Source: Planctomycetota bacterium (GTDB lineage: Bacteria > Planctomycetota > MHYJ01 > JACQXL01 > JACQZI01). Taken from it: a stretch of DNA of 64,000 nt. Positions 1-18,945 of this stretch are shown one piece after another; positions within the stretch are counted from its first letter, which is position 1, and every line of letters begins with the position of its first letter. The stretch is from contig JACQZI010000018.1 in the NCBI GenBank assembly GCA_016207825.1, positions 1-64,000 of the forward strand. The letters run 5' to 3'. Position numbers and translations under genes: made by a program. The notes under the pieces were generated by a model that saw only the letters and a list, made by a program, of their open reading frames with translations, did no database searches and was not told the origin of the DNA.

Positions 1-2
1 AA

Positions 3-1658
3 TACCTAGAATGCCCCAATTGCCGTATCCAGATTAAGCCGACTCCGGGGATTCCCTGGTCGGGCGCGACATGCCCGGGTTGTAAAACTGTCATGGCGCA
101 TTTTATCCGTGAGGTGCAGAGTAAAAACGGTAATAATCAGCCAAATCCACCGGTTGCTTCAGGCACCCAGCCTGTATACTGGGGTCCTTTTGGGTTACTT
201 GCACATAAATTTTATCATGGGGCTGGGAATCAGGCACAGGGACAGCCACAAGCCCTGCAACCAGCCAACCCACAAGTTACTCAGCAGACAACAGGTGGGA
301 TTGGCGCCGGTATTATTGTATCTTCACAGGGACATATTTTAACTAATTACCATTTGATTGCCGGACAGACGGATATAACTGTAACCATATTTACGCCTCG
401 AGGTAATAATGCTTGCCCAGCTGTTATAATTGCAACAGATCCCCAAAATGATTTAGCTATCCTGCAGATTAAGCCAACTGCGCCGATGGAGTTTCCGGTA
501 GCGCCATTAGGGAACTCTGATAATATTTCGGTGGGAGATACGGTTTTAGCCTTTGGCAATCCTTTTGGATTATCACAGACCGTAACCGATGGTATCATCA
601 GCGCCAAAAGGAAAAACATAAACATAGAAGGGCATCAGTTGAATAATATGCTCCAGACGGATGCCCCGATTAACCAGGGAAATTCCGGCGGGCCTTTGGT
701 TAACCTGCAAGGAGAAGTTATCGGGCTTAATACCGCCATTTATTCGCCGATGCAAACCCATACAGGCTTGGGTTTTGCGATACCTATTAACCAAGCAAAG
801 CAATCCTTTGCAAAATATATAGACCTGAAATCGCCGCAGGCGGTCCAGGCGCAGTTGGTTGCCATGCGCTGGATAACATGCCCGAGAGCATTCCCGGTTG
901 CCCAGGCCGGGCCTCAGGCAGGGCCCCAAGCTGGCCCTCAAGCCGGACCAGTAGCAGCAAATACCCCTAATGAGGATTCTCCTGCCTGGATGGGTGTAGA
1001 ATTCCAAATACTCAATGACGTCCTGGCAGAACAGTTCAAGGTGCCTTTTGACCGTGGAATACTCGTTAACAAAGTTTTTCCTAATTCACCTGCAGCTGAA
1101 GCCGGATTGCAGGTTGGTGATGTCATTTACCGTGCCGACGGGACAAGGATAGCGGATGAAACAGTTATCCGTACCTTTTTGGCTGATAAGAAACCGGGCG
1201 ATAGCGTAACCTTTGCCATCTTCCGTGAAGGCAATAAATTAACTATCAAGGTGAAACTTGCCGGTGGCTCGAACGGGCAACCAATGGGATTAATACCGCT
1301 GCCTCCGGATGGGTTATTGTTCGGTTCGGAAATAGAGGCCGGGACAGCCGATATCGTAACCCTGGGGTTAACCGTGGATAATATTACCCCGGAGGTTGCT
1401 TTTGCATTTGGATTGCCTGAAAACATGAAAGGAGTAGTGATTGCAGATGTCGAAGGAATAGCCTTATTGAAAGGGGTAGAAGAAGGTGATGTAATAAAAG
1501 GTGTTAATGGGGAACCTACACCTGACCTGCTTTCCTTTTTTAAGTGCTTAAAGAAAAGTGATTTGACTAAAGGAGTGACCATGAACCTATCACGCAATGG
1601 CAAACCGGTTGATATATTTCTAAAGGAAAATCCGGAAATTCTGACACCGGGAATATGA
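3..1658 (+). CDS. mamE: MamE-like HtrA serine protease with N-terminal Cys-pair ribbon and two PDZ domains (5' partial)
   Basis: The frame is open to the left edge, so the true start lies outside; the first internal ATG is at 93 but the coding sense begins earlier. Before that Met the frame reads two CxxC pairs (CPNC at about 12-23, CPGC at about 72-83), a ribbon-like or degenerate magnetochrome-like motif. A Gln/Pro-rich linker follows, then a trypsin-like domain with an intact triad (His87, Asp120 and Ser198 in GNSGG, counted from Met at 93). A short AGPQ repeat links it to two PDZ domains (about 300-385 and 430-515). HtrA/DegP proteases process or scaffold envelope proteins; MamE is the magnetosome member. 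The mam assignment rests on the neighbours mamB and mamM rather than on the protease domain itself, and generic DegP is the alternative. Confidence 0.72.
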   Translation, partial: YLECPNCRIQIKPTPGIPWSGATCPGCKTVMAHFIREVQSKNGNNQPNPPVASGTQPVYWGPFGLLAHKFYHGAGNQAQGQPQALQPANPQVTQQTTGGIGAGIIVSSQGHILTNYHLIAGQTDITVTIFTPRGNNACPAVIIATDPQNDLAILQIKPTAPMEFPVAPLGNSDNISVGDTVLAFGNPFGLSQTVTDGIISAKRKNINIEGHQLNNMLQTDAPINQGNSGGPLVNLQGEVIGLNTAIYSPMQTHTGLGFAIPINQAKQSFAKYIDLKSPQAVQAQLVAMRWITCPRAFPVAQAGPQAGPQAGPQAGPVAANTPNEDSPAWMGVEFQILNDVLAEQFKVPFDRGILVNKVFPNSPAAEAGLQVGDVIYRADGTRIADETVIRTFLADKKPGDSVTFAIFREGNKLTIKVKLAGGSNGQPMGLIPLPPDGLLFGSEIEAGTADIVTLGLTVDNITPEVAFAFGLPENMKGVVIADVEGIALLKGVEEGDVIKGVNGEPTPDLLSFFKCLKKSDLTKGVTMNLSRNGKPVDIFLKENPEILTPGI

Positions 1659-1739
1659 GTTACCCGGTAGTTGCTATTCCGAACCGATGCCCAGTGTTTA
1701 CGTTATTATTTAACGAGTTTCTAACAAGCAAGAATTTAA

Positions 1740-2639
1740 ATGACAACTTTAAGTAATGTAAACGGGAATGAAAAATGCGCCGGTTGTGCCCGGTCTGTCA
1801 TGATGATTTCCGCCTTAGCTAATGTGGTCATGGCATTCGTAAAAGGATTTGTGGGGTTTATGACCGGTAGTAAAGTGCTATTAGCCGATGCCTTGCATTC
1901 AGGCGCTGATATTATTTGCGGCTTTTTTAGCATATTAAGTTCATGGACGAGCGGCAAGCAAAGCGACCAAAAACATCCTTATGGTTACGGCAAGATAGAA
2001 TTTTTTGTCGGCATTGTCGTTGGCTTAGTTCTTATTTTTGCCGCGGCTAATATATTTATCCCATCATTTAAAGCCTTCTTTTTAACGCCACCTGTAACGG
2101 TTCATGCGCCGCCCTTCATCGCACTCTGGGTGGCACTTCTTTCAATTTATGCCAATATCGTAGTATCGCAGTTGACGCTTTGTGCGGCCAAGCGCGTAAA
2201 CAGTCCCGCTCTGGATGCGATTTCCGCGGACAACCGCTCGGATGCGTATTCTTCCGTCCCCGTTGCTCTGGCAATTATGGGTGCGCAATTAGGGTTTCCA
2301 CAGCTTGATTCGATTGGCGCAATTTTTGTCAGTATCATCATCCTCAAAATCGCCGTAACACTGGTTATAAAGAATTACCGGGGCTTAATGGATGCAGCGG
2401 CACAGCCTCAAGAGGTCCAAAATATCTCCAAGATTGTAAAGAGCCTGCCTGAAGTAAAAGATATCGGATACCTAAAAACCCGCCTTACCGGCAGGAATAT
2501 CTGGGTCGATCTCCAAGTGTTGGTGGATGGCAAAAAGACAGTTTCTGAAGCGGATTTGATATGCACGAGAATCCGTTCGGCTTTAATACAGAAAATAAAT
2601 ACTATCGGCAACGTCCAGGTGACATTAAAGCCGGTTTGA
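1740..2639 (+). CDS. mamB: MamB-like cation diffusion facilitator
   Basis: A 299-residue CDF transporter with six membrane segments and a cytoplasmic C-terminal domain, expected to move Fe(II) or another divalent cation out of the cytosol or into a magnetosome vesicle. An N-terminal CxxC (Cys13, Cys16) precedes TM1. TM2 has ADALHSGAD (His53, Asp57) and TM5 has DNRSD (Asp164, Asp168), the combination found in MamB, where generic CDFs have HxxxD in TM5. The HPYGYGKIE loop and a GLMDAA motif after TM6 also match MamB. It starts 81 bases after the protease gene with no clear Shine-Dalgarno and is followed 13 bases later by a second protease gene, suggesting one operon. A non-magnetosome CDF is less likely given the TM5 Asp and the MamM-type paralogue downstream. 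Confidence 0.8.
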   Translation: MTTLSNVNGNEKCAGCARSVMMISALANVVMAFVKGFVGFMTGSKVLLADALHSGADIICGFFSILSSWTSGKQSDQKHPYGYGKIEFFVGIVVGLVLIFAAANIFIPSFKAFFLTPPVTVHAPPFIALWVALLSIYANIVVSQLTLCAAKRVNSPALDAISADNRSDAYSSVPVALAIMGAQLGFPQLDSIGAIFVSIIILKIAVTLVIKNYRGLMDAAAQPQEVQNISKIVKSLPEVKDIGYLKTRLTGRNIWVDLQVLVDGKKTVSEADLICTRIRSALIQKINTIGNVQVTLKPV

Positions 2640-2652
2640 TGAGAGGCTATAT

Positions 2653-3978
2653 ATGAAAACAAATTCAGTAGTATGGGTCATGGTTTCGATTATCGCGGTC
2701 GGATTGATTTTACTGTGGCTCGTTTTATTCCGAAGCCTCTGGACAGATGAGCCGGCTAAAATAGGCAGCGTTAATTTATGGAATAATAGCAGTTGGTCAG
2801 GGCAGCCCGTGATTAACCCTACTCCTTTAAAACCAGATGCAGTGACCGGCCCGACCCCGCGGATTATTGCCTGGCAGACGGGAAATGTTATTAACAGTAT
2901 CAGGCCGGCGGTAGTCGGTATAGCCGTGGGGAATACCGGACAGCCGCCCCCCTGGCAGCAAGGCTGGAAGGTGTTTACGCCTACCGGTAAGTGGAGTGTC
3001 GGCAGCGGCGCAATCGTCAGTCCCCAGGGATATATTATTACCAATTATCACGTTATTGCTTCGGGCGGACAGATTGCGGTTTCCGTATTCTCAAATGATA
3101 CTTACCAGGAATATCCGGCACAGCTTATTGACGGCAATGCCAATAACGATTTAGCGCTTCTTAAGATTAGTTCCGCCCAGCCATTACCGTCTGTTCCGAT
3201 AGGCAATTCGGATAAAGTGCAGACCGGCGACCAGGTCATTGCCATCGGTAATCCCTTTGGATTAAGCCAGACCGTGACCAAGGGTATCATCAGCGCCAAG
3301 CGGAAAAAACTAATGATTGGCAACCTTAATATGTATAACCTGCTTCAAACCGATGTCCCGATTAATCCGGGCAATAGCGGAGGTGTATTATGCAATTTAA
3401 AAGGCGAGGTCATCGGTGTTAATGTAGCGATTTATTCTCCGGTAGAATCGGTTTATACCGGTGTGAGTTTTGCCATACCCATTAATAAGGCAAAGATGCT
3501 TTATGGCAAGTATATGGATTTGACCACTCAACCGGTGAAATATCAGCTTCTGAGCGGCAAGTCGCCGGGATACGGGCAGCCTGCCGCCGTAGGTGTAAAC
3601 AATCCTGTTCCGTTTAATGCGGCTAATCCGGAACGCATTCCGGCTAATCAGCAGCGGATTATGCCCTCACCGGGAGAAGGCATTGAAGAGCTTGCCTGGC
3701 TGGGTATTGACCTGGTGCCGGCAGCTGATGTTGGTTTGGGGGTAGAGGTAGATGAAATAGAAGGAATTTCACCTATGGAGGCAGGGCTGCAAGCCGGCGA
3801 CATTATTCAAGGAATTAATGGGTCACCTATAGTTGATCTCTACGCCGTTAAGGAGATAATCAAAGAGATTCCTCTCAAAAAAGGACAGTCGGTTGTCATG
3901 CAAGTCTTTCGCCCGCGGACGACCCAGAATATATTTATCAATTTCCGCTTGCAGGACTGGGATATTAAGGGAAGATGA
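2653..3978 (+). CDS. MamE/MamO-type membrane-anchored trypsin-like protease with one PDZ domain
   Basis: Residues 5-26 form an N-terminal anchor, followed by a Pro-rich linker and a trypsin-like domain with His133, Asp166 and Ser242 (GNSGG) all present, so it looks catalytically competent, unlike the degenerate MamO protease. One PDZ domain occupies about 345-430. The protease core is close to that of the upstream protein (shared GNPFGLSQTVT and GIISAKRK), so the two are probably tandem duplicates with mamB between them. No CXXCH haem motif is present. The start at 2653 has a weak GAGAGG upstream and follows mamB by 13 bases. Role is inferred as periplasmic or vesicle-lumen processing in the metal-organelle cluster; an ordinary DegQ-like protease is the alternative. 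Confidence 0.75.
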   Translation: MKTNSVVWVMVSIIAVGLILLWLVLFRSLWTDEPAKIGSVNLWNNSSWSGQPVINPTPLKPDAVTGPTPRIIAWQTGNVINSIRPAVVGIAVGNTGQPPPWQQGWKVFTPTGKWSVGSGAIVSPQGYIITNYHVIASGGQIAVSVFSNDTYQEYPAQLIDGNANNDLALLKISSAQPLPSVPIGNSDKVQTGDQVIAIGNPFGLSQTVTKGIISAKRKKLMIGNLNMYNLLQTDVPINPGNSGGVLCNLKGEVIGVNVAIYSPVESVYTGVSFAIPINKAKMLYGKYMDLTTQPVKYQLLSGKSPGYGQPAAVGVNNPVPFNAANPERIPANQQRIMPSPGEGIEELAWLGIDLVPAADVGLGVEVDEIEGISPMEAGLQAGDIIQGINGSPIVDLYAVKEIIKEIPLKKGQSVVMQVFRPRTTQNIFINFRLQDWDIKGR

Positions 3979-3987
3979 ATCCCGATT

Positions 3988-4821
3988 ATGATGAAGGAAG
4001 ATATCAGTGCACAAGCAGACCAACTGTTTAAGCAGGGTTTATTCCATTATACCCAGAGTAAAACCTCGGAGGGGATAAAAATCGTTACCGACCTGTGGCA
4101 GAAGGCAATAGAACTCTACCGGCAGATTGGCGATCAGATTAAAGTAAAAGAGGTAGAATCATATTTTAATCGCCTTTCCCGAAACATCCTAAAGAAAGCA
4201 TCCCCCGAATCATTTACTAAAAGGGCAAAAGAGAAGTCCAAGAAGTTATTTAACGATTGGTGGGTTTTCCTGAAAATAGGCTGTTTCGGGGTAGGCGGTC
4301 CCATGGCGGTTCTGGGATTATTACAGGAGGAATTGGTTAATCGTAAAAAGGTTCTGGATAATAAAGACTTCCTGGAAGGGACGGTCTTGGGTGATATCAT
4401 TCCCGGTCCGGTAACTATGGACCTGGTTACATATACGGGCTTTAAACTGCGCAAGTGGACCGGAGCCATATTGGCAACCGTGGTTTTTATCCTGCCTTCT
4501 TTTTTTATAATGCTTATCTTAGCAAAATACTACGACATATATAATTCAATCCCCATGGTAAACAATATATTCAAGTGTTTAGGGGCAGCGGTAGTTGCAA
4601 TCATAATTTCCGTCGGAATAAACCTGGGCAAAAGTGAGATTAAGGATTATTGGGGAACGGGTATTTTACTCTGGTCTTTTATCTCATTTGTATTCTTTAG
4701 GGTGGATATGATTATAGTAATATTTTTAGCCGGGTTAGTGGGTATCCTTGTTGAGTTTATCCCCCCCCCCCCCGCATTATCGACTGTTTCAGAAGGCATT
4801 ATGGGGGAAGTAAAGGCATAG
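3988..4821 (+). CDS. ChrA-type transporter half, with N-terminal helical extension
   Basis: The C-terminal ~190 residues are a chromate-transporter (ChrA, CHR family) domain starting with WWVFLKIGCFGVGGPMAVLG and containing the VLGDIIPGPV signature. About 85 residues of charged helix precede it and resemble a single TPR-like unit, which is unusual. The protein is half-length; the partner half is the next gene, as in the split short-chain ChrA pairs of many bacteria. The anion carried is unknown; CHR proteins move chromate or sulfate-like oxyanions. It begins 9 bases after the protease gene. A run of 13 C lies near its 3' end (4761-4773). Nothing in the sequence ties it directly to iron, so its presence in the cluster is only positional. 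Confidence 0.8.
   Translation: MMKEDISAQADQLFKQGLFHYTQSKTSEGIKIVTDLWQKAIELYRQIGDQIKVKEVESYFNRLSRNILKKASPESFTKRAKEKSKKLFNDWWVFLKIGCFGVGGPMAVLGLLQEELVNRKKVLDNKDFLEGTVLGDIIPGPVTMDLVTYTGFKLRKWTGAILATVVFILPSFFIMLILAKYYDIYNSIPMVNNIFKCLGAAVVAIIISVGINLGKSEIKDYWGTGILLWSFISFVFFRVDMIIVIFLAGLVGILVEFIPPPPALSTVSEGIMGEVKA
4761..4773 (+). repeat. Homopolymeric C13 tract inside the ChrA-half gene
   Basis: Thirteen consecutive C residues code for a Pro run (ATC then four CCC codons) about 16 codons before the stop. Such tracts slip during replication and can phase-vary a gene. Loss or gain of one C replaces only the last ~14-18 residues, so the effect would be modest. It may also be a length error in the assembly. 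Confidence 0.85.
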
Positions 4822-4828
4822 AATAATT

Positions 4829-5344
4829 ATGTATACGTTACTTTTGCTTGGTTGGGTATTTCTGAAGGTTGGATTCTTCTGCTGGGGCGGAGGCATTGTA
4901 ATCATCCCCTTGGCAGAAGAAGAAGTCGTTTTCAAATATGGCTGGTTGACTCCGACTGAATTCGTTGATGCAGTGACATTAGGCCAGGTATCGCCTGGGC
5001 CGGTGGTTATTTCCACCACTTTTATCGGCTATAAAGTTGCCGGTTTATTAGGCGCGATTGTTGCTACAGTAAGTGTAATATTGCCGGGTTTTATTCTGAT
5101 GTGTTTGGCTACCCAGGCAGTAACCGCGTTCAGGAATAACCGTTACATGAGCGCCTTTTTCCATGGTGCCCGGGCAGCCGTTATCGCCATGATTTTCCAA
5201 GCAGCCTTAAGTATTGGTAACACTGCTCTGGTTGATGTCAAAGCGGTTTTTATCGCTGTAATCAGCTTGGTGTTGCTGACACGATATAAATTAAGCCCCA
5301 TCTGGCTGATATTTGTGGTGCTAGGTATAGGAATTATAACTTAA
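4829..5344 (+). CDS. ChrA-type transporter, second half
   Basis: A 171-residue hydrophobic protein of the chromate-transporter family. It starts with LGWVFLKVGFFCWGGGIVII and carries the family signature VTLGQVSPGPVVI. It follows the first ChrA half by 7 bases, so the two are almost certainly co-translated and form a heterodimeric inner-membrane transporter. Five to six membrane segments can be read. No cytoplasmic domain is present. Substrate is unknown. Confidence 0.82.
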   Translation: MYTLLLLGWVFLKVGFFCWGGGIVIIPLAEEEVVFKYGWLTPTEFVDAVTLGQVSPGPVVISTTFIGYKVAGLLGAIVATVSVILPGFILMCLATQAVTAFRNNRYMSAFFHGARAAVIAMIFQAALSIGNTALVDVKAVFIAVISLVLLTRYKLSPIWLIFVVLGIGIIT

Positions 5345-5356
5345 TTAAAAGAGCTT

Positions 5357-6028
5357 ATGAGTAATATATGTCTCGAAGTTAAAACCTGTTCAACAAGGTT
5401 AATGATTTTTTCGGTAATAGCCAGCCTTGTTTTGAGTGTCATTAAAGGCGGAATTGGCATTCTCGGCAAAAGCGAGGCGCTGGTGGCAGACGGGTTATAT
5501 TCATTTTACCAGGGTTTTATTTGTGCCCGGTCTCTTATAACCAAAAGAGATATAGAGCCGGATAAAGATAGTAACCGGTTCCCATTGCTGACTACCGGCC
5601 AGATATGGTTTGTAAGTAGCGTGGTAGGTTTGATTCTTATATTAGGCGTATTTGACGTATTTGTTTTTTCTATAATAAGATTAATTAAAGCCGCAAGCGG
5701 TTGGATAGTTGACCCAAGCCCGTATGCGTTTTATGTGGCGTCTTTTTCTAGTACTGTTAATTATATCTTTTCATGTTACAGCAATTGTGCGGTTCAGCAA
5801 ACCGCGGTGAAAAATATAGCGGAGTTAAACCATAGCTTTCGGTTATCAGTCCTTATTTCTATGATTGCGCTGGTCGGTATCGGGTTAAGCCGCTGGGCAT
5901 GGCTTGGCGGGGATGCCTTTGCCGCCATGGTCATTGTCGTATTGATTGTTAAACCGGTTTTTGGATTATTCCAGAAATACCAAGGCGATAGATTAAATAC
6001 GACTTCTATGGGTACTAATATTACTTAG
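5357..6028 (+). CDS. Degenerate CDF-family membrane protein lacking metal-site residues and C-terminal domain
   Basis: 223 residues with the CDF six-TM pattern: LVADGLYS matches the TM2 motif and an NHSFRLSVLIS stretch matches TM5. The metal-binding residues are replaced: TM2 HxxxD reads Tyr48 and Gln52, and TM5 HxxxD aligns with Ser160 and Ser164. The loop HPYGHGK between TM2 and TM3 is also lost, and the protein stops after TM6 without the cytoplasmic dimerisation domain. The reading frame is intact, so it is not obviously a pseudogene. A non-transporting partner of the MamB/MamM-like proteins is a reasonable inference. It lies 12 bases after the ChrA pair with an AAGAG-type site. Confidence 0.7.
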   Translation: MSNICLEVKTCSTRLMIFSVIASLVLSVIKGGIGILGKSEALVADGLYSFYQGFICARSLITKRDIEPDKDSNRFPLLTTGQIWFVSSVVGLILILGVFDVFVFSIIRLIKAASGWIVDPSPYAFYVASFSSTVNYIFSCYSNCAVQQTAVKNIAELNHSFRLSVLISMIALVGIGLSRWAWLGGDAFAAMVIVVLIVKPVFGLFQKYQGDRLNTTSMGTNIT

Positions 6029-6057
6029 TGATGAGTTTATAATAAGGAGGGCTCTAT

Positions 6058-6621
6058 ATGTCATTAGTCAAGTGTGTACAATGCGGCCACGATATTTCGG
6101 ACCGCGCTTTAACCTGCCCAAGATGCGGTGACCCAAGGCGCTTAGCCGGCAATCCTGAACCGCGTTTTGGCGGTAATATGGTTAAAGAACCGGTTATTAC
6201 CTGCCCAAACGGTGCGGAGGATACTAAGCTTCATGAGGTATCATTAAAACATCAGGGGGCAGTAACGGAAACGCCTAATATTGCCAGGAGGATTCTCGCT
6301 GAAGAAACTGAGTATGTGGAGCACGAGGCAAAAACGGCGAAAATCTGGTGTTTGCTGGGGATTATTGGCGGTCTGGGTATCATTGGCGGTGCTATCTGGA
6401 TAATGATTTATACCCGAAATGCTGTTATTGACCTGAGCTTTCTTACTAAGCTCTTGGGCAGGAATATAGATATAAAATATCTGGGTGAAATATTGTCAAT
6501 TGGGTTATGGGGTGTGGCATTAGCAACCATAGTGCATGGTATCTGGTGGCTACGGCGGATGAATCGCCTTCAGCCGGTTATTGCGAGTCTCAGGAATATT
6601 CGGGATAAGATGCAGAAATAA
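6058..6621 (+). CDS. Zinc-ribbon membrane protein of unknown function
   Basis: 187 residues. An N-terminal zinc ribbon (CVQCG at 6-10 and CPRCG at 20-24) is followed by a linker and two membrane segments (about 100-120 and 145-165), ending in a basic cytoplasmic tail. A strong AAGGAGG lies 8 bases before the ATG. It closes the first block of the cluster; an array of 22-bp repeats follows. I do not recognise an assigned family. Cys-pair ribbons recur in this cluster (first protease, 15290-15976). Confidence 0.6.
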   Translation: MSLVKCVQCGHDISDRALTCPRCGDPRRLAGNPEPRFGGNMVKEPVITCPNGAEDTKLHEVSLKHQGAVTETPNIARRILAEETEYVEHEAKTAKIWCLLGIIGGLGIIGGAIWIMIYTRNAVIDLSFLTKLLGRNIDIKYLGEILSIGLWGVALATIVHGIWWLRRMNRLQPVIASLRNIRDKMQK

Positions 6622-6699
6622 AACCATATATGTAGCATACTAATTGCTAAAAGTGGTTGTTCTTTGACAAATAATTATTTTTTTTGTGACAGGGGGGAG

Positions 6700-6963
6700 C
6701 GTATATTGCCTAGGGAGAGTATAACTGTTGTAGAGGAGCGGGATAACTGTTGCGAGGGACGGAGATAACTGTTATAGGCTGGAAGTAAGTATATTGCCGG
6801 TATAGAGTATAACTGTTGTGGGCAGGGATGATGACTGTTGCAGGGATAGCTGGGAACTGTTGCAAGGCATGGTGGTAACTGTTATAAGCTGGGGGTAAGT
6901 ATATTGCCGGTATAGACTATAGCCGTTGCAGGGTAGATGCGGTTATGTTGCAGGCGGGGTGTA
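6700..6963 (+). repeat. Array 1: twelve tandem 22-bp degenerate repeats
   Basis: Twelve units of exactly 22 bp can be phased without gaps. Most begin TAACTGTTG followed by about 12 variable, G-rich bases; a second unit type begins AGTATATTGCC. The pair TAACTGTTATA.. plus AGTATATTGCCGG.. occurs at 6766-6809 and again at 6876-6919, 110 bp (five units) apart. There is no spacer/repeat alternation and no cas gene, so it is not CRISPR. The array sits inside the mam-type cluster between the zinc-ribbon gene and the MamL-like gene and is followed 5 bases later by a G-rich block. Confidence 0.9.
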
Positions 6964-6968
6964 CGCCA

Positions 6969-6993
6969 GGAGGGGGTGGGGGGAGGTACCCCC
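6969..6993 (-). other. C-rich/G-rich block adjoining array 1
   Basis: On the minus strand this reads GGGGGTACC followed by CCCCCCACCCCC. Nearly the same block, in the other orientation and also next to a 22-bp array, occurs at 39325-39348. Long G runs on one strand could form a quadruplex, and the ends can pair as GGGGGTACC/GGTACCCCC. Confidence 0.7.
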
Positions 6994-7255
6994 TATCACC
7001 TTGAAACCGATTTATATTGATTTTTAGCGGGAATAATCGTGACTTTTTCATACGAAACTCAATATATTAAGAATTAATTCTGCATATATTCGAGATAGGC
7101 TAAAAACGTCACGATAAAACCGAACTATTATAGATGAATTTTAGAACAGCAAACATGGGTATATATGAAACAAGATAAAGGTATAATTGTTGCTTCTATA
7201 TTATTAATACAGGAGGGAGCAAAGTAGCTAATCCCCTAATAATAGGAGTTGCAAT
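6994..7255 (+). other. Intergenic region before the MamL-like gene; possible leader ORF
   Basis: AT-rich and likely to contain the promoter of the second block. A 20-codon ORF at 7165-7227 (MKQDKGIIVASILL.., ending before the ORF at 7256) has no strong Shine-Dalgarno and may be chance. I see no clear consensus promoter, riboswitch or Fur/DtxR box that I would defend. Confidence 0.3.
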
Positions 7256-7549
7256 ATGAAATTTCAACTAATTATTATCCTGGTAATGGCGTTGATTGTA
7301 GTCCTTTTTACCTTCCAAAACCCGCATCCGGTTCCCATGCACTTTGTCGGCTGGGGAACCAGGGATTTCCCGGTAATAGGCGTAGTCTTGATTTCGGTCA
7401 TTGCCGGAGTGATACTGTCTGTTTTATGGGGATTAATCAGCAATAGCAAGTTAAAAGAAGAGATTTTTAATTTAAAGAGGAAGTTACATAAGGTTCAAGC
7501 CCCACCGGTTAATCCGGAGGAAGAGGAACCGCCTGATTTCATGAAATAA
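7256..7549 (+). CDS. LapA-domain (DUF1049) two-TM protein, MamL-like
   Basis: 97 residues: TM1 (5-20), a short loop with the FQNPHPV..F pattern typical of LapA/DUF1049, TM2 (about 40-60), then a basic helical tail (KLKEEIFNLKRKLHK) and an acidic Pro-rich end. MamL, which is needed for magnetosome membrane formation in Magnetospirillum, has the same build: two LapA-like TMs and a positively charged C-terminal helix. The MamL reading is therefore an inference from architecture and location; an ordinary LapA-domain protein is the alternative. TAGGAG precedes the ATG by about 7 bases. Confidence 0.6.
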   Translation: MKFQLIIILVMALIVVLFTFQNPHPVPMHFVGWGTRDFPVIGVVLISVIAGVILSVLWGLISNSKLKEEIFNLKRKLHKVQAPPVNPEEEEPPDFMK

Positions 7550-7596
7550 ACTATTAATAAATTACGAGCTTTTATAAGAAAGGAGCATCGAGGATT

Positions 7597-7836
7597 ATGA
7601 AAGATAAAAACCCAGGATTGGCGGGAGTATTTTCGTTCTTTATTCCCGGTTTAGGACAGATTTATAACGGCGAATTCGGCAAGGCCATCGGTTTTATTAT
7701 AGCTTCAATCATCGGTGGATTGCTGACGCCTATTTTTATCGGCTTCCTGATCATTCTGCCGGCTTGGGCGTGGGGCGTGGTAGACGCTTATTACTCAGCC
7801 GAGAAGATTAATGAAGGCGAAATTGTTGCGGATTAG
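7597..7836 (+). CDS. TM2-domain small membrane protein
   Basis: 79 residues with the TM2-domain pattern PGLGQIYNGEFGKAIGF, then a second hydrophobic segment and a short VVDAYYSAEK end. TM2 proteins are small two-helix inner-membrane proteins without an established biochemical role. A good AAAGGAG precedes the ATG. It lies between the MamL-like gene and feoB, all on the + strand. Relation to the small magnetosome membrane proteins (MamF/MmsF-type) is not supported by the motif. Confidence 0.65.
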   Translation: MKDKNPGLAGVFSFFIPGLGQIYNGEFGKAIGFIIASIIGGLLTPIFIGFLIILPAWAWGVVDAYYSAEKINEGEIVAD

Positions 7837-7961
7837 GATATATTGATGCCTTTCTGCACTTCCGGCAGGCGGATTTACTATTCCCGTTATTACGCCCGTT
7901 ACACTAAGGAGTGGTTGGTGCAGGAATGCTTCCGGTTAAATAATGACGTTTTACGATTTCT

Positions 7962-9929: not shown

Positions 9930-9950
9930 CCCGTTAGAAAGGAGAATGTT

Positions 9951-11670: not shown

Positions 11671-11672
11671 AA

Positions 11673-12452
11673 ATGAGTTTGATACGTTTGGAAAACGTGA
11701 CCAAGGGGTATCAATCCGAGAGTAACGGCTTGATTATTGCCTTGAAAGATATCAACCTGGAGATTGAAGCAGGTGAATTCATCTGTGTAGTTGGCCCCTC
11801 CGGTTGTGGAAAATCGACCATCCTTAATATGATTGCAGGGTTTGATTATCCGACCGAAGGCAGGATTTGTTTCAATGATGACCTTATCACCGGGCCGGGC
11901 CCGGAACGGATTATGGTTTTCCAGGAACATGCTTTGATGCCCTGGCTTAATATCAGGCGTAATATTGAATTCGGTTTGACCATGAACGGTAAAACCCAGG
12001 ATGAGCGCAATAAAATTGTTGATGATTTGCTGAAGATTACCCACTTAGAAAGGTTTGCCAATTCATGGGTGCATGAATTATCAGGCGGGATGAAGCAAAA
12101 AACCGCTTTAGCGCGCGCCCTGGCGCCGAACCCGAAAATATTGCTGATGGATGAGCCGTTTGCAGCTCTGGATGCGCAAACCCGGCGCATGATGCAGGAT
12201 GAATTATTGAATATGTGGTCACTGGCTAATAAAACCATTCTTTTCATTACGCATAATGTGAATGAAGCCGTGACGCTGGCAGACCGGGTGGTCGTTTTGA
12301 CCAAGCGTCCCGGAAGGATAAAGAAAATTATTCCGGTTCGCCTTATGCGTCCCCGTGACCGGACGGGTTTTGATTTTAATACAATCCGACAGGAAGTTTA
12401 CGGAGAATTGGAAGTGGAAGTGACACAGGCATATGCAAATGCTTTGTCGTAA
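11673..12452 (+). CDS. ABC transporter ATPase (SsuB/TauB-like)
   Basis: 259 residues with Walker A GPSGCGKST, signature LSGGMKQKTALARAL, Walker B ILLMDEPFAALD and the switch His in FITHNVNEA. It belongs to the nitrate/sulfonate/taurine ATPase group. It begins 2 bases after the binding-protein gene and is followed 12 bases later by the permease gene. It energises import at the inner membrane; substrate unknown. Confidence 0.92.
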   Translation: MSLIRLENVTKGYQSESNGLIIALKDINLEIEAGEFICVVGPSGCGKSTILNMIAGFDYPTEGRICFNDDLITGPGPERIMVFQEHALMPWLNIRRNIEFGLTMNGKTQDERNKIVDDLLKITHLERFANSWVHELSGGMKQKTALARALAPNPKILLMDEPFAALDAQTRRMMQDELLNMWSLANKTILFITHNVNEAVTLADRVVVLTKRPGRIKKIIPVRLMRPRDRTGFDFNTIRQEVYGELEVEVTQAYANALS

Positions 12453-12464
12453 ATAAATAACTTT

Positions 12465-13235
12465 ATGAAAAAGAATAACCATAAGTCGTTGTTCCTGAAA
12501 ATAGGATTTCTGGCTCTGGTCATGGTAATATGGGAAGCATTGTCCCTGATGCATATTTGGGATGATTTTATTTTCCCATCGCCTGTTAACGTTATCAAAG
12601 ACCTTGTTGCCGGAATAGGAGAAGGGACTTATATTACGGCTATTTTAATAAGTATGAAACGTATTGCCATCGGGTTTGGTTTGGCTATGGCGGGTGGTGT
12701 TGGTTTGGGCTTATTATTAGGAAGGTCTAAATTAGCTGAAGATACTATCGGAACTCTTGTTCTGGGTTTGCAAACATTGCCGAGTATTTGTTGGTTGCCG
12801 CTGGCTTTGCTTTGGTTTGGTTTGAATGAAAAGGCGATAATTTTTATCATTATTATCGGTTCGATGCTTTCCATAAGCATTGCGACCATGTCCGGGATTA
12901 AAAATATACATCCTCTGTATCTCAGGGCGGCCCAAACATTCGGTGCTAAAGGATATAAATTGTATTCTAAAGTTATCATTCCTGCGTCAATTCCATCCAT
13001 TATTACCGGATTGAAGCAGGGATGGTCATTTGCCTGGCGTTCATTAATGGCTGGGGAATTGCTTTATATCAGCCTGGGGCTGGGACATATCCTGATGATG
13101 GGCAGGGAATTAAATGATATCAACCAGGTCGTCTCGGCAATGCTTATCATTATGTTGATTGCCATGGTGATTGACCGGTTAATCTTTAGCCGTCTTGAAA
13201 CCATGGTTTATAAAAGATGGGGTTTAGCAAATTAG
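12465..13235 (+). CDS. ABC transporter permease (SsuC/TauC-like)
   Basis: 256 residues with six membrane segments and the EAA-type loop (LRAAQTFGAKGYKLYSKVIIPASIP, quoted in part) that docks onto the ATPase. It completes the binding protein-ATPase-permease set. A short gap (54 bases) separates it from the small ORF preceding the MamM-like gene. Function is import of a small anion or organic ligand of unknown identity. Confidence 0.92.
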   Translation: MKKNNHKSLFLKIGFLALVMVIWEALSLMHIWDDFIFPSPVNVIKDLVAGIGEGTYITAILISMKRIAIGFGLAMAGGVGLGLLLGRSKLAEDTIGTLVLGLQTLPSICWLPLALLWFGLNEKAIIFIIIIGSMLSISIATMSGIKNIHPLYLRAAQTFGAKGYKLYSKVIIPASIPSIITGLKQGWSFAWRSLMAGELLYISLGLGHILMMGRELNDINQVVSAMLIIMLIAMVIDRLIFSRLETMVYKRWGLAN

Positions 13236-13289
13236 CCGGGAAACTTGCGTGTTGATTAACTTATTTTGAACGTAAGGAGATAAATAAGA

Positions 13290-13547
13290 ATGCAAAAGCA
13301 AACAATAGAAACGCTGGATAAAATTAACCCGATCTGGCTGTTAAGGCAGATAAGCGTGGACAATTTGGTTAGAGGGATTAATTGGATTGGGAGAATTCTT
13401 ATCCCGATTAAGAAGTGTGCCGTTTCGGTATCAGGTAATATCAAGGAAAGTATTGCGGAAGCAGCAGAAGAAATGGAGAACCCGAAATCAAAGGGTAAAA
13501 AGATTACGATATCTAATAAAACGGATAGTGAAAAAAATGCAGAGTAA
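13290..13547 (+). CDS. Small charged protein of unknown function, overlapping mamM
   Basis: 85 residues with no Cys pair and no full membrane segment; the middle (INWIGRILIPIKKCAVSV) is amphipathic and the C-terminus is rich in Lys, Glu and Ser. A good Shine-Dalgarno (AAGGAG) sits about 10 bases before the ATG, and its stop overlaps the start of the MamM-like gene, so translation of the two is probably coupled. I recognise no family. It could be a peripheral membrane protein. Confidence 0.6.
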   Translation: MQKQTIETLDKINPIWLLRQISVDNLVRGINWIGRILIPIKKCAVSVSGNIKESIAEAAEEMENPKSKGKKITISNKTDSEKNAE

Positions 13548-14403
13548 GGAAAAATGTAGCGTGTGTTCCAATAAATACTTGTGGGTAGGGCTCGGCAATA
13601 GTATTGTCCTGGTGGTTTTGAAAGGCACTGTTGGTTTATTAAGCAATAGCCGTGCATTGATTATGAGTGCCTTTTATTCTATCCATGATGTTATCGCTGC
13701 CATTACCATTATTACCGGGTTAAAGATAGCCAATGCACCTAAAGATGAAGAGCATCCTTATGGCCATGGTAAGGTGGAAGATATTATCTCGGTATTTACC
13801 AGTCTTCTGATCATGGGCGGTGTTATTTTCCTTTTGATTGATATCATCAGGATTGTTTATGCCGGAGAACATTCTACTCCTCATTGGGCGGTTTTCGGCA
13901 CGGCGCTTATTGCCGTTTTTGCCAATGAAATTATCCACCGGTATAATATCTGTGCTTTTAAACGGTTGAACAGCCCTGCGGTTTTAACCGGCGCCAAGCA
14001 CCACCGGGCGGATGCTATCTCGTCCCTCGCCGTTGTTATTGCGGTTTTGGGCGGTAAATTGGGATTCCATTTCTTGGATTCTGTTGTAGCTATATTCGAA
14101 GCAGGGCACCTAATAATCTTGAGCGGTGAAATACTTTACCATTCAAGCGCAGAGTTAATGGATCGTTCTCTGGACCAAAAGATAATTTCTGTCATACGAC
14201 GGGTTGTTTCCGGTATTGTCGGCGAGGATACAATTAAAAATATAAAGACCAGGCAAATTGGGCGGCTTTGGTGGATTGATTTATCCCTTGCTTTGCCTGA
14301 TAATATTACCATTACCGAGGCAGATAATATTAAGCATGAAATCGAATATACTCTCAAAAGGGATGTTAAGCATTTAGAACACGTTAATGTAATATATGAG
14401 TAA
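13537..14403 (+). CDS. mamM: MamM-like cation diffusion facilitator
   Basis: The start at 13537 gives MQSKEKCSVC.. and overlaps the preceding stop; the longer frame from 13387 is only the shadow of the upstream gene. An N-terminal CxxC (Cys7, Cys10) is followed by WVGLG as in MamM. TM2 carries Tyr47 and Asp51 (AFYSIHD) and TM5 carries His155 and Asp159 (AKHHRAD). This YxxxD/HxxxD site is the known MamM variant of the CDF metal site, where other CDFs have H or D at the Tyr position. The HPYGHGKVE loop, STPH and NSPA motifs also match. MamM forms a complex with MamB and supplies iron to the magnetosome. The gene overlaps the next CDF gene by 8 bases. Confidence 0.82.
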   Translation: MQSKEKCSVCSNKYLWVGLGNSIVLVVLKGTVGLLSNSRALIMSAFYSIHDVIAAITIITGLKIANAPKDEEHPYGHGKVEDIISVFTSLLIMGGVIFLLIDIIRIVYAGEHSTPHWAVFGTALIAVFANEIIHRYNICAFKRLNSPAVLTGAKHHRADAISSLAVVIAVLGGKLGFHFLDSVVAIFEAGHLIILSGEILYHSSAELMDRSLDQKIISVIRRVVSGIVGEDTIKNIKTRQIGRLWWIDLSLALPDNITITEADNIKHEIEYTLKRDVKHLEHVNVIYE

Positions 14404-15286
14404 ATCAAATATAAAAGAACGTTGCATCAGATGCGAACAGAAAGTGCCCTGGGTAATTCTTTCTATTAACCTTGGCGTATTCCTGATAGAAGGGGTTTTT
14501 GCCCTTATCAGCAATTGCCGTTCGCTCACGGCTGATGCCATTGAGTCTTTTGCGACTTTGATTATTGCCTTAATCGTTCTGTATAGCCTTAAAATTTCAA
14601 AGAAAGAAAATGATGAGAAACATCCTTACGGGTATGGTAAAATAGAATTTCTCGCTTCAGGTGTAATATATTCATTGCTATTAATGGGGATATCGGTGTT
14701 TATTTATGCCTCAATCAAGGAAATGATAACACCCGGCTTTATGGAGCCGCCTTGTCTTATTGCGGTTTTCCCTGTCTTGATTGCTATTGCGGGTAATTAT
14801 ATTGTATTCAAATATTGCCGTTGCGCAGGGGAGAAACTTCATAGTCCGGTTATTTTAGCTAATTCCATGATTAATAAAACGGATATAATGACTTCTTGCC
14901 TGGTTCTCGTGGCGGTTATCGGGTCTAACCTCGGATGGGTTAGCCTGGACCATATTATTGCCGTTATCATCAGCCTTCTGATTGTCAAGACGGCCGTTGA
15001 GGGGATGATTAAATCCGCAAGAGGGCTAATAGATTATTCTCCCAAAGAAGCCATTTTACAAATAAGGGATATAATCAATCGGGTTCCGGGAGTAAAGGAA
15101 ATTAAGGATATAAAAACGAGATTAGTCGGCAGAAAGATTTGGGTTGATTTGGATCTGGGTGTCCCCGGAAATTGTATCTTGGGCGAGGGGTTGAAGATTA
15201 GCGAAAAACTGAAATATATGTTAAAAGAGAAGATGAGTAACATTGTAGATGTTACGATACGTCTGTCTCCGGTAACGGAGGAATAA
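14396..15286 (+). CDS. CDF paralogue with altered metal site
   Basis: 296 residues, full CDF layout including the C-terminal domain (VPGVKEIKDIKTRLVGRKIWVDLDL, quoted in part as a single conserved region around residues 225-260). It retains the N-terminal CxxC (Cys10, Cys13) and HPYGYGKIEF, but TM2 has Glu50 and Thr54 where HxxxD is expected, and TM5 has Ile159 and Asp163. Three of four site residues are therefore changed. It overlaps mamM by 8 bases. It looks like a MamB/MamM-related subunit that has lost or changed transport ability. A heteromeric partner role is inference. Confidence 0.75.
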   Translation: MSKSNIKERCIRCEQKVPWVILSINLGVFLIEGVFALISNCRSLTADAIESFATLIIALIVLYSLKISKKENDEKHPYGYGKIEFLASGVIYSLLLMGISVFIYASIKEMITPGFMEPPCLIAVFPVLIAIAGNYIVFKYCRCAGEKLHSPVILANSMINKTDIMTSCLVLVAVIGSNLGWVSLDHIIAVIISLLIVKTAVEGMIKSARGLIDYSPKEAILQIRDIINRVPGVKEIKDIKTRLVGRKIWVDLDLGVPGNCILGEGLKISEKLKYMLKEKMSNIVDVTIRLSPVTEE

Positions 15287-15289
15287 CCA

Positions 15290-15976
15290 ATGTATTGGAA
15301 TGATGAGCTTAAAAACGAGGGTAAAATGTCGTCTGCGGTACTTAGTAATGCAGGAGGTGCCCTGTCGGATGAGGATTGCTTTGCCGAAAAGTCGAAAGGT
15401 TGGATTTATGTGCTGGCATTTGTCATTATCGGAGTTCTGCTTTTCGGGATAATTAACCTTTTTAATAATCCTACTTGTCCGATAGCGCAACTTAATACCA
15501 TGGCACAGCCGGTCGCGTTGAATCCCTGCCCATATTGTACCGGGGGACTGCTTGATAGTCAAGGGCGGTGTAATATCCCGGACTGCAAGATTTTTAGCCC
15601 TAATTGGGGACAGGCATCAAACACTATTACTTCAGCTCCGGTTCCCAAGGTAGTGCCTAAACCGGTTTTGATTAAACAGGTGGCAATGGAAGTGGCCCCA
15701 TCCGCTGTCGGTCAAGGGGTGGTGGTTCATTCGGTCTATGGCGGGAGCTGGGCTCAAAAGGCGGGGCTTGAGCCGTATGACCTTATTATTAATTTTAACG
15801 GGCAGAAAGTAAAAGACATCGAACAGTTTCAGGCTTTGGTCGCCAAGGCAAAAGCTGAATCAGCGGTTAAAATTGCGTTCGTGCGTGATAATAAAAAATA
15901 TGAATCAAATATTACCATTGGAGAAGGAGAAATGGAAGGAGCAATCAAACCGGTTGTTCCCCTTAAAGTGCAATAA
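15290..15976 (+). CDS. Single-TM zinc-ribbon PDZ protein (MamP-like layout without haem motif)
   Basis: 228 residues: cytoplasmic N-terminus, one membrane segment (38-57), a Cys-pair ribbon (Cys80, Cys83, Cys94, Cys99) and a C-terminal PDZ domain (about 130-205, with GSWAQKAGLEPYDLIINFNG). MamP is also an anchored PDZ protein, but it carries CXXCH magnetochromes that bind haem; here the Cys motifs lack His and look zinc-binding. CGGAGG just upstream sets the start. It follows the CDF gene by 3 bases. Whether it is a true MamP homologue cannot be decided from the sequence alone. Confidence 0.65.
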   Translation: MYWNDELKNEGKMSSAVLSNAGGALSDEDCFAEKSKGWIYVLAFVIIGVLLFGIINLFNNPTCPIAQLNTMAQPVALNPCPYCTGGLLDSQGRCNIPDCKIFSPNWGQASNTITSAPVPKVVPKPVLIKQVAMEVAPSAVGQGVVVHSVYGGSWAQKAGLEPYDLIINFNGQKVKDIEQFQALVAKAKAESAVKIAFVRDNKKYESNITIGEGEMEGAIKPVVPLKVQ

Positions 15977-15997
15977 ATAATGTTAGGAAGTAAAATT

Positions 15998-17431
15998 ATG
16001 CAAAACACCCAATTAAAAACACAAGCAAAACCGGAAAAAGATACGTCCCCTAAAGTTATAGAATTACTGAAGCGTATAAAATCATTCCAGGGCGAAGAGC
16101 TTGCCGATATTCAGGTTTCCGGTAAAGTTTCTAAGTTGGAACAGACCGATTCCGGGCATAGATATTTTATGCTTGGTGAGGGAAAAGAGCAAATTAAGTG
16201 TGTCCTTTTTGCGGATAAGGCGCGGAATCTTAATCTAAAGATGAAAAACGGATGGCAGATGTCCGTTTCCGGCAGTGTGGTGATAGATAAAAAAGCCAAC
16301 AGCGGCCAAATCATTGCGGATAACGTCGAGATTATCGGGATGAGCGGTATGCAAATGGCGATAACGCAGCTTAAAGACCGTCTCCATGAAGAAAAACCAT
16401 TGGAATCATCGCATGAAACGCCCATAACGCCGGTGCCCAAAGCGCAGGCAAGCGGCGGCGTTCCGCTTCCGGTTAGCGCGCCTGGGATTAATAAAAACAG
16501 GACTCAGGAAGAAGAGGATGATGCCGTCCGTGATGAGAAACTAGGGGTTGCCCGTTTGTCCATCATATCCAATACCGTTCTTATTATCGGAAAATTAGCC
16601 GTAGGTCTTTTCACCGGTTCGGTTAGTGTTGTGTCCGAAGGCATCCATTCCGGCATGGATTTATTGGCTGCGATTATCGCCTATTTCTCGGTTCGCGCCG
16701 CCGCCGTGCCACCGGATAAGGAGCACAAATTCGGGCATGGCAAGATAGAAAATATCTCCGGTTATATTGAAGCCACTTTGATATTCTTTGCCAGTGCTTT
16801 GATTATCCATGAGGCTATTGATAAATTAATCAATGGGACACCTGTCGAATTCCTTGGTTTGGGTATTTTTATTATGGGAGTATCCATCGTATTAAACTGG
16901 ATTGTCTCTAAGAAACTTATGGCTGTTGCAAAGAAATATCATTCCGCAGCATTGGAGGCCGATGCTATGCATCTTACCACGGATATATATACTTCATTAG
17001 GTGTATTGGTCGGATTGGTGTTAGTGCAATTAACCGGCGTAGAGATTATTGACCCGATCGTCGCCATACTGGTCGCTTTGTTAATCGTCCATGCGGCTTA
17101 TGAACTGACCAAGCGGTCTTTGCGCGATTTGTGCGATGCCAGGCTGACCGACCAGGAAGAAGCTGTAATCAGGGGTGTTTTAGATGAACATCGCGAGCAA
17201 TATGTAGATTATCACCAATTGCGCACCAGAAGAGCCGGAAATACCTGCTTTATTGATTTACATGTGGTTGTGAAAAAGGAAAGTTATATTGATGAAGGGC
17301 ATAAACTAAGCAAGCACTTGGAACGTGATTTGGCAGAGGCATTCCCCAGCACCGAAATATTAATTCAGGTGGAGCCCTGTGATGAAAAGTGCACGCTCTG
17401 CCCGAAGAAAAAAGATTGCCAACCCGGCTAA
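15998..17431 (+). CDS. CDF transporter fused to an exonuclease VII-type OB fold
   Basis: I prefer the ATG at 15998 (AGGAAG upstream) to that at 15980. Residues 35-130 match the OB fold of exonuclease VII large subunit: SGHRYFMLGEG, QIKCVLF, a NGWQMSVSGSVV strand and a closing QLKDRLHEE helix. After a linker (135-180), residues 185-460 form a canonical CDF transporter with intact TM2 (His217, Asp221) and TM5 (His325, Asp329) sites. The C-terminus ends in a Cys cluster (CDEKCTLCPKKKDC). It is the only CDF here with the full classical site. An OB fold on a membrane transporter is odd; it may bind a nucleic acid, nucleotide or another protein. Confidence 0.82.
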   Translation: MQNTQLKTQAKPEKDTSPKVIELLKRIKSFQGEELADIQVSGKVSKLEQTDSGHRYFMLGEGKEQIKCVLFADKARNLNLKMKNGWQMSVSGSVVIDKKANSGQIIADNVEIIGMSGMQMAITQLKDRLHEEKPLESSHETPITPVPKAQASGGVPLPVSAPGINKNRTQEEEDDAVRDEKLGVARLSIISNTVLIIGKLAVGLFTGSVSVVSEGIHSGMDLLAAIIAYFSVRAAAVPPDKEHKFGHGKIENISGYIEATLIFFASALIIHEAIDKLINGTPVEFLGLGIFIMGVSIVLNWIVSKKLMAVAKKYHSAALEADAMHLTTDIYTSLGVLVGLVLVQLTGVEIIDPIVAILVALLIVHAAYELTKRSLRDLCDARLTDQEEAVIRGVLDEHREQYVDYHQLRTRRAGNTCFIDLHVVVKKESYIDEGHKLSKHLERDLAEAFPSTEILIQVEPCDEKCTLCPKKKDCQPG

Positions 17432-17548
17432 AAATCGGCAGGGAATTTTCGGAAAATACCGGTGTGATTAAATACTTGATTACACGGAAGGAATATGTAT
17501 AATCTCTCGTGAGCATTATTGGTGTATGCTTATGAGAAAGGCTATGTT

Positions 17549-17989
17549 ATGAAAATAGCGGTTCCTTCTGATGATACCCAGAATATTTCTGCTCACTTTG
17601 GCCGGTGTACTTATTTTATAATCTATACGGTTAGGGATAAAAAAGTTATAGAACGAGAGGTGAGGAACAATAACTATTGCCCCCATCGCATGGGTGTTTG
17701 CCCTAAAATGGTGAAAAGCAAGAAGGATAAATTCGTGGAGAAAGTAAGGGCATCGGCTGTTGGCGGAATTCGGGATTGCAACCTGTTAATCGGCCGATTT
17801 ATAAATCCAACATTGAAAAGCACGCTCAAGAAGTATAATATTGATTATCGGGTCGTTGATGAAAAGGAAGGCGATAAAACCGTAGAAAAATATTTATCCG
17901 GGGCTTTAACCGATAGGTCAGCTGATTTTTCGTGTGAGCATCCGCAATGCCAGTGTAATTGCCTGGGAGAATTCATTGCTGATAATTAA
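17549..17989 (+). CDS. NifX/NifB-like dinitrogenase cofactor-binding domain protein
   Basis: The ATG at 17549 gives MKIAVPSDDTQNISAHFGRC, the classic start of this family; the upstream ATG at 17519 only adds ten residues before it. The fold (about 115 residues) binds iron-sulfur or iron-molybdenum clusters in NifX, NifY and NafY. A Cys-rich insertion (NYCPHRMGVCPK) and a CEHPQCQCNC tail add potential metal ligands. No nif structural genes are nearby. In other genomes this domain accompanies CDF transporters. An iron- or cluster-carrying role in the cluster is inference. Confidence 0.8.
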   Translation: MKIAVPSDDTQNISAHFGRCTYFIIYTVRDKKVIEREVRNNNYCPHRMGVCPKMVKSKKDKFVEKVRASAVGGIRDCNLLIGRFINPTLKSTLKKYNIDYRVVDEKEGDKTVEKYLSGALTDRSADFSCEHPQCQCNCLGEFIADN

Positions 17990-18003
17990 TCCTGCTGATA
18001 ATC

Positions 18004-18945
18004 ATGTCTAAGATTTTTGGCAAATGGAAAGACTTTTTCAAAGATTACATTTCCACCGACAAAAAGGGAGGTGGCTCCTCTTTGATTAGCCATGTAATAA
18101 AAAGCCTGAGGCAAAAAAAGAGGCATAATAAGGATACGCAAAGCTTGGCGTTAGGCGTCCTTATCGCTTCCGGCGCGGCGACGGCACGTGCTCTTTATGC
18201 TAAGCCAAGTGTTAAATCTACATTTGAGTCCACCGTGGATAAATTATTTACCGGCAGGTGGGAAGAATATAAATCTTTGGGGACGGTTAAACGCTATGCC
18301 GATTTGATTGCTGAACTGTTAAAATCCAACAATGTTGTTCCTGAAAGGTTGGCTGTGGATGGCTTGCCCGGAAGCGGCAAAAGCACATTGGCGCGTGCGC
18401 TTGCCGAAAGACTCGATTTCCAATGGAAATCCTTGGATGGCATGAACCTGAATAAACCCATCGATTTCAGCGAAAGCAAAGCGGTTTATGAGCACCACCG
18501 GTTGTTAAGAACCCATGAACCGGATAATTTCGACGCCATTATATATATTGACGAGCCGGTCGAAATGGCTAAAGCCAGGGTGGTAAAAAGAAAAAGAATG
18601 GCGATTGTCGTGGATATCTGGGATTTTGATAAATTAAAACAGATAGGCGATAAAGCCTTTGCGATTTGCAATGGGGCGGTTCATGCCATCCCAAATAGTA
18701 ATATCAAGATCAAAATAAAACCCCGCGGCGGTTTTGGAGCATATGAGAATATCGCCTCCGAATTATTTATCTTGGGAATTAATTCGGAAGGTTTATCTAA
18801 GGAGCAATTATTGTTTTTATCCATAGATGGCAAGGCAAGGCAGGGGCTTAATGCTTATATTAACACCAGCGCATATAATCAAGAGTTGCTTGCTGGGTTG
18901 ACGGCAGGGCTTCGTGAATTATTCCAACCGGGAAAAGATGATTAG
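18004..18945 (+). CDS. P-loop kinase-like protein (uridine kinase fold) of unknown substrate
   Basis: 313 residues. After a basic N-terminal third with a short hydrophobic stretch (LALGVLIASGAATARALYA) comes a P-loop NTPase domain with Walker A GLPGSGKST at about 122-130 and an IYIDEPVEMAKAR region. The pattern resembles uridine kinase/phosphoribulokinase-like enzymes, but the substrate is not predictable. It follows the NifX-like gene by 14 bases and is the last + strand gene before a convergent apbE, so it marks the right end of the cluster. Confidence 0.6.
   Translation: MSKIFGKWKDFFKDYISTDKKGGGSSLISHVIKSLRQKKRHNKDTQSLALGVLIASGAATARALYAKPSVKSTFESTVDKLFTGRWEEYKSLGTVKRYADLIAELLKSNNVVPERLAVDGLPGSGKSTLARALAERLDFQWKSLDGMNLNKPIDFSESKAVYEHHRLLRTHEPDNFDAIIYIDEPVEMAKARVVKRKRMAIVVDIWDFDKLKQIGDKAFAICNGAVHAIPNSNIKIKIKPRGGFGAYENIASELFILGINSEGLSKEQLLFLSIDGKARQGLNAYINTSAYNQELLAGLTAGLRELFQPGKDD

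Follow-up and report, generated by a model that had tools for sequence, protein, structure and literature searches.

A divergent magnetosome-type gene cluster, cut by a contig end, in a Planctomycetota draft genome

Does a gene block at the very start of a planctomycetote contig encode a magnetosome and, if so, what would such an organelle be used for? The window analysed here, 64 000 nucleotides long, comprises bases 1–64000 of contig JACQZI010000018.1 (G000:C18; 82,697 bp), which belongs to a 2.89-Mb draft assembly (G000; GCA_016207825.1) that is 97.6% complete and 0.05% contaminated. Every gene from position 3 to 18945 lies on the + strand, in agreement with the one-directional block of about 19 kb described in the original prediction, which had proposed a magnetosome-type cluster of a non-classical lineage; the next gene, of the ApbE family (18961–19974), lies on the − strand. 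Since the first base of the window is also the first base of the contig, the first gene is cut and the cluster has no defined boundary on that side. Magnetosome gene clusters are already known in the Planctomycetota (PMC7602337); the same paper lists mamABIKMQ as the core genes, of which mamBIMQ are essential in Magnetospirillum. By the features tested, the block qualifies as a magnetosome gene cluster, in a variant not known before, and it is very likely to be a divergent cluster that is common to a second genome of the same order, probably under selection, and cut by the start of the contig.

The genome contains five cation diffusion facilitator (CDF) genes, all of them inside this block. 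Two had been predicted to be of magnetosome type, one with a MamB and one with a MamM signature; both proved to be real, but the count was too low, as there are three full-length magnetosome-type CDFs (1740–2639, 13537–14403 and 14396–15286, all +) in addition to a truncated one (5357–6028, +). The first displays the metal site H-D-D-D and the second Y-D-H-D, each together with an N-terminal CxxC and an internal cysteine. These residues are diagnostic: the N-terminal CxxC is found in 21/21 MamB and 24/25 MamM proteins (45/46 Mam CDFs) versus 1/67 other CDFs, and the internal cysteine in 46/46 versus 0/67, while Y-D-H-D occurs in 20/25 MamM rows and H-D-E/D-D in 20/21 MamB rows. The NCBIfam MamM model matches the two best CDFs with E = 4e-72 to 2e-78, far above chance, and all three full-length proteins score higher against the MamM/MamB models than against the generic CDF one.

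Phylogenetic placement, set beforehand as a check, put all three full-length proteins inside magnetosome clades. In a tree of 118 rows they fall in one clade (support 100/99), whose other members are all CDFs encoded on magnetosome-cluster contigs, or relatives of these. A rebuilt tree of 66 rows separates the magnetosome rows from 22 other rows at 100/98; in it, the protein at 13537 lies inside the MamM clade (100/97), that at 1740 joins two Riflebacteria cluster CDFs as their sister (100/98) on the MamB side (92/85), where the deepest forks are moderately supported, and that at 14396 groups with its homologue from the second genome and a Desulfamplus CDF (99/89). Approximately unbiased (AU) tests reject a placement among the non-magnetosome CDFs with p = 0.0037 for 1740 and p = 8e-8 for 13537, both on an earlier tree with one stray row (L264), and p = 5e-51 for 14396 on the corrected tree. 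The third CDF has a degenerate metal site, E-T-I-D, yet is 54% identical to its counterpart in the second genome (E-N-V-D), and this conservation across two genomes suggests a conserved non-transporting partner.

Both predicted MamE-type proteases were also borne out. The first, E1 (3–1658, +), is cut at its 5′ end by the contig start and contains trypsin and PDZ domains with the catalytic motifs TNYH, NDLA and GNSGG; the second, E2 (2653–3978, +), has one N-terminal membrane segment, a PDZ domain and likewise an intact H-D-S triad of motifs. In a tree of HtrA proteins the two group with the MamE of a Riflebacteria cluster (94/95), whereas a separate, generic clade (100/99) takes in six further HtrA proteins encoded by this genome. 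The CxxCH motif carried by the MamE of most other cluster genomes is absent from the window and from the Riflebacteria MamE, so that a magnetochrome is no universal feature of such clusters. E1 carries instead a four-cysteine module, CPNC-x16-CPGC (12–83, +), of the form CPxC-x16-CPxC, which is present in one copy in the window MamE and in two in the Riflebacteria MamE with the same 24-residue spacing, and is absent from every generic HtrA in the compared set. It is read as a putative zinc-ribbon- or rubredoxin-like knuckle. A search of the open-access literature found no paper on this order or on a four-cysteine MamE.

What, then, lies beyond the broken end? A second Planctomycetota metagenome-assembled genome (MAG) of the same order, CSMAG_1870 (G004; DAOWBV010000121.1; 94% complete), contains a contig of 7,578 bp (C69) that reads regulator-regulator-HEAT-STAS-DUF502-HEAT-small-mamA-mamQ-mamI-mamE and stops inside the N-terminal cysteine motif of MamE, the same point at which the window starts. 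Its MamA scores 149.5 bits, its MamQ falls in the MamQ clade with those of Riflebacteria and Hydrogenedentes (97/86) and its MamI reaches 56.5 bits, which is below the cut-off, as is the MamI of Ca. Magnetobacterium casense at 76.9. In the window genome a regulator-HEAT-STAS block is found at C6:8018-12427, away from the mam genes, and its identity of mostly 40–60% to that of G004 supports the assignment of C69 to this order. Two further G004 contigs parallel the window: C223 encodes feoB, another gene, dtxR-feoA, TauE, a small protein and mamM, and C112 (6,324 bp) the third CDF and an anchored protein, in the same order except for TauE in place of an SsuABC-like transporter. By this synteny, the segment missing upstream of the window most likely held mamA-mamQ-mamI. 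The MamE region is repetitive in Riflebacteria, and such repetition could explain both contig breaks; the first 140 bases of the window, used as a DNA query, retrieved no second contig with the same broken end.

The shared genes include those of iron supply, whose prediction was likewise sound. FeoB, a ferrous iron importer (7962–9929, +), is 68–86% identical to that of G004 and 31% to the FeoB of a Nitrospinota magnetosome cluster, and the DtxR-family regulator fused to FeoA (9951–10610, +) is 59% identical to that of G004 and 39% to the Nitrospinota feoB neighbour. MamM is 67% identical, so that MamM, the third CDF, FeoB and DtxR-FeoA together share 54–86% identity with G004 across two families of the order, which points to continued selection. 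Also in common are a small conserved protein before mamM (13290–13547, +), which is 39% identical over 64 residues to the gene in the same place in G004, matches no family and is named here as a new gene of the lineage, and a membrane-anchored protein with a four-cysteine motif and a PDZ domain (15290–15976, +). The latter had been described as MamP-like; the anchor and the PDZ domain are present, but with one four-cysteine motif and neither CxxCH nor magnetochrome it is not a full MamP. Its homologues stand beside MamM/MamB in the Planctomycetota genome G033, on the cluster contig of G057 and, without the PDZ domain, in G004.

Among the known clusters compared, the stretch from Candidatus Riflebacteria nDJH6bin19 (L090; JADFYG010000006.1), a phylum reported as magnetotactic by Lin et al. 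2020 (PMC7602337), resembles the window in the two MamE-type proteases adjoining a MamB-type CDF, in the cysteine module without CxxCH, in the sister relationship of its CDFs to that at 1740–2639 and in a LapA-type protein. On the other hand, its contig holds a protease-MamN/CitMHS fusion and MamQ, and the compared stretch yielded no FeoB, DtxR-FeoA, ChrA or SsuABC. Nitrospinota nNGHbin12 (L075:11012-14652) has consecutive mamB, feoB and dtxR-feoA fusion genes, a cassette for iron supply that is shared, but differs in its classical MamE with CxxCH, MamK and MamQ. Three magnetosome clusters from Planctomycetota, namely G033:C135, G057 (nwagbin3, JADGBV010000309.1; C232, 4,705 bp) and G377:C33, served as positive controls within the phylum. 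Like the window they encode Mam CDFs and MamE/PDZ proteins, and in G033 a PDZ protein adjoins the CDFs; unlike it they carry magnetochrome domains or CxxCH motifs, all three genomes have flagellin, and G057 and G377 have a MamK-type actin. The cluster of G377 (L261; G377:C33:8000-27051) is a full one of classical type in another Planctomycetota family, with mamI, mamE, mamK, mamM, mamN-like, mamO/P-like, mamA, mamQ and mamB. Outside the phylum, the groundwater MAGs L088 and L089, placed in Myxococcota, contain MamM, MamB, MamA, MamQ and MamE homologues, and L088 additionally a MamI-like protein.

Several observations weigh against a magnetosome cluster, or against a complete one. The original prediction proposed a search for mamK, mamI, mamQ and mamA: none of the four was found in the 97.6% complete assembly, and mamA, mamQ and mamI came to light upstream of mamE in G004, whose relevant pieces lie on three contigs with an adjacency that we infer. 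The magnetochrome profile PF18509 had no match in the window genome or G004, while G033 and G057 were positive, and no CxxCH was found among the cluster proteins scanned. No MamK was detected in either genome, the sole actin-type match of the window genome being an MreB-like protein (47097–48161), and Flagellin_N, the sole flagellar family searched, gave no match in either, with matches in G033, G057 and G377. Two other genomes of the order, G003 (96% complete) and G006 (93%), contain no MamM-type CDF at 1e-25, a patchy presence. The proteins of the block score below the NCBIfam equivalog cut-offs, as do most bona fide Planctomycetota cluster proteins. Finally, the truncated CDF, which lacks the C-terminal domain and has the degenerate metal site Y-Q-S-S, and a gap of about 630 bp without evident gene (6622–7255), with degenerate repeats of about 22 bp around ATAACTGTTG and Tandem Repeats Finder matches at 6721–6777 and 6834–6883, could be signs of erosion, and the organelle itself is a prediction from gene sequences.

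Among the candidates tried for the missing genes, two LemA proteins of the window genome (C8 and C39) match the MamQ profile but are placed by the tree in the LemA clade, and its tetratricopeptide repeat (TPR) proteins score at most 107.8 bits against MamA, within the range of non-cluster relatives; the MamI search returned no match. With regard to MamK, actins scoring more than 400 bits to its profile were seen in other Planctomycetota (G044:C271, G039:C346, G015:C180, G037:C158 and others), in genomes with no MamQ above the LemA level and no magnetochrome match found. A MamK-type actin alone is thus no marker of a magnetosome bearer.

Could the block be unrelated to magnetosomes, an accidental grouping of FeoB, DtxR-FeoA, efflux CDFs and HtrA stress proteases in the service of iron homeostasis? 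The HtrA, LapA, PDZ and CDF families are common and the genome is rich in HtrA-like proteins, but the clade placements, the AU rejections, the diagnostic cysteines, the likeness to Riflebacteria and the mamA-mamQ-mamI genes beside mamE in the same order largely refute this explanation and leave it highly improbable. The CDF clades, the grouping of the MamE proteins and the G004 genes ending at the same motif lead instead to a divergent cluster cut by the contig end, and it is reasonable to infer from homology that the host produces an iron organelle or did so in the past. The second alternative of that statement, a decaying or silent cluster in a lineage that formerly made magnetosomes and is now losing the genes, would account for the truncated CDF, the repeat-bearing gap, the absence of mamQ, mamI and mamA from the assembly and the patchy presence across the order, and a silent cluster has been published in a non-magnetotactic host, Rhodovastum atsumiense (PMC9938234). 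However, the other reading frames are intact, the proteases and MamM/MamB retain their catalytic and metal-site residues and the identity to G004 speaks for continued selection, so that decay appears unlikely.

An equally doubtful explanation is a conventional magnetotactic bacterium, whose cells swim along field lines and in which the missing segment would hold mamK and magnetochrome genes besides mamA, mamQ and mamI. It is true that the contig breaks within mamE, that genes are missing, that the assembly is about 2.4% incomplete and that no MamK match came from the assembly of G033 either, despite its classical cluster and magnetochrome MamP. Against it, neither the window genome nor the 94% complete G004 has a magnetochrome, MamK or flagellin match, whereas flagellin is present in G033, G057 and G377. 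MamK is encoded by one of six genes present in >90% of high-quality genomes of magnetotactic bacteria (PMC7602337), and the phenotype of a magnetotactic bacterium is unsupported by the tests made here. The joint lack of detected MamK, magnetochrome and flagellin favours an organelle that is not for navigation, and a compartment of this kind is the single most likely use, ahead of magnetotaxis or a relic. It is nevertheless put forward tentatively and below even odds, because one flagellar family was tested, the drafts are incomplete and G033 is also without a MamK match.

According to this non-navigational proposal, which we advance with reserve, the order may keep MamA, MamB, MamE, MamI, MamM and MamQ with FeoB and DtxR-FeoA, in the absence of magnetochromes, MamK and flagella, for an organelle of iron storage, detoxification or redox buffering in which four-cysteine modules of MamE and the PDZ protein would replace heme domains. 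In the mechanism proposed for the cluster itself, FeoB would import ferrous iron to the cytoplasm under the control of DtxR-FeoA, and MamI and MamQ, seen in G004 and presumed with MamA for the segment missing here, would shape a compartment of the inner membrane, possibly together with the LapA-type protein. The MamM/MamB-type CDF pair would carry Fe(II) into this compartment, possibly partnered by the degenerate third CDF, which would not itself transport; in complementation, distant orthologues introduced one at a time have failed (PMC10470508). Deposition of mineral or iron may be organized or licensed by the anchored PDZ protein and both MamE-type proteases, in which four-cysteine modules would take the place of the heme magnetochromes of classical systems.

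One proposal holds that magnetosomes began as buffers of iron or oxygen radicals before they served navigation (discussed in PMC3971196 and PMC7602337). If the non-navigational reading is true, this order would be a present-day case of that early role, and a lineage with compartment and iron-transport genes but no navigation or heme parts would make the proposal testable. The cluster also suggests that magnetochromes are dispensable, with CPxC-x16-CPxC as a candidate replacement module, and clusters of this kind would escape screens that rely on mamK or magnetochrome.

The remaining genes of the block were for the most part as predicted. The protein called MamL-like is a two-helix membrane protein with a LapA domain (7256–7549, +) that is 34% identical to a LapA protein adjoining mamQ in the Riflebacteria cluster; the clusters of Riflebacteria and Ca. 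Magnetobacterium casense encode comparable LapA proteins, but the domain (LapA_dom match, no NCBIfam model match) is widespread, so that it is better described as a possible MamL analogue. It is followed by a small membrane protein (7597–7836, +) with weak DUF5683/TM2 matches below the cut-off. The OB-fold–CDF fusion (15980–17431, +) is also present, although its CDF is an ordinary one that falls outside the magnetosome clade in the 118-row tree, with G003 and Bacillota, and shares 67% identity with one CDF from G003, a genome without a detected MamM-type CDF; it is probably not part of the system. Its OB part is XseA-like and had no match among the other proteins of the loci compared. Scans for promoters and terminators gave no excess, the Rfam search no matches and the GC content nothing useful.

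An SsuA/NMT1-like substrate-binding protein (10606–11670, +) is encoded together with the ATPase (11673–12452, +) and permease (12465–13235, +) of the same ATP-binding cassette transporter, the predicted SsuABC-like system. A MamP variant with a NitroFeMoCo domain has been reported in the work that describes magnetochromes (PMC3971196), and the separate NifX-like protein of the window, with a dinitrogenase Fe-Mo cofactor domain (17549–17989, +), may or may not be related to it. The ChrA pair consists of two chromate-transporter halves (3988–4821 and 4829–5344, both +), and between the truncated CDF and the gap lies a zinc-ribbon membrane protein (6058–6621, +) with the four-cysteine motif CVQC-x10-CPRC.

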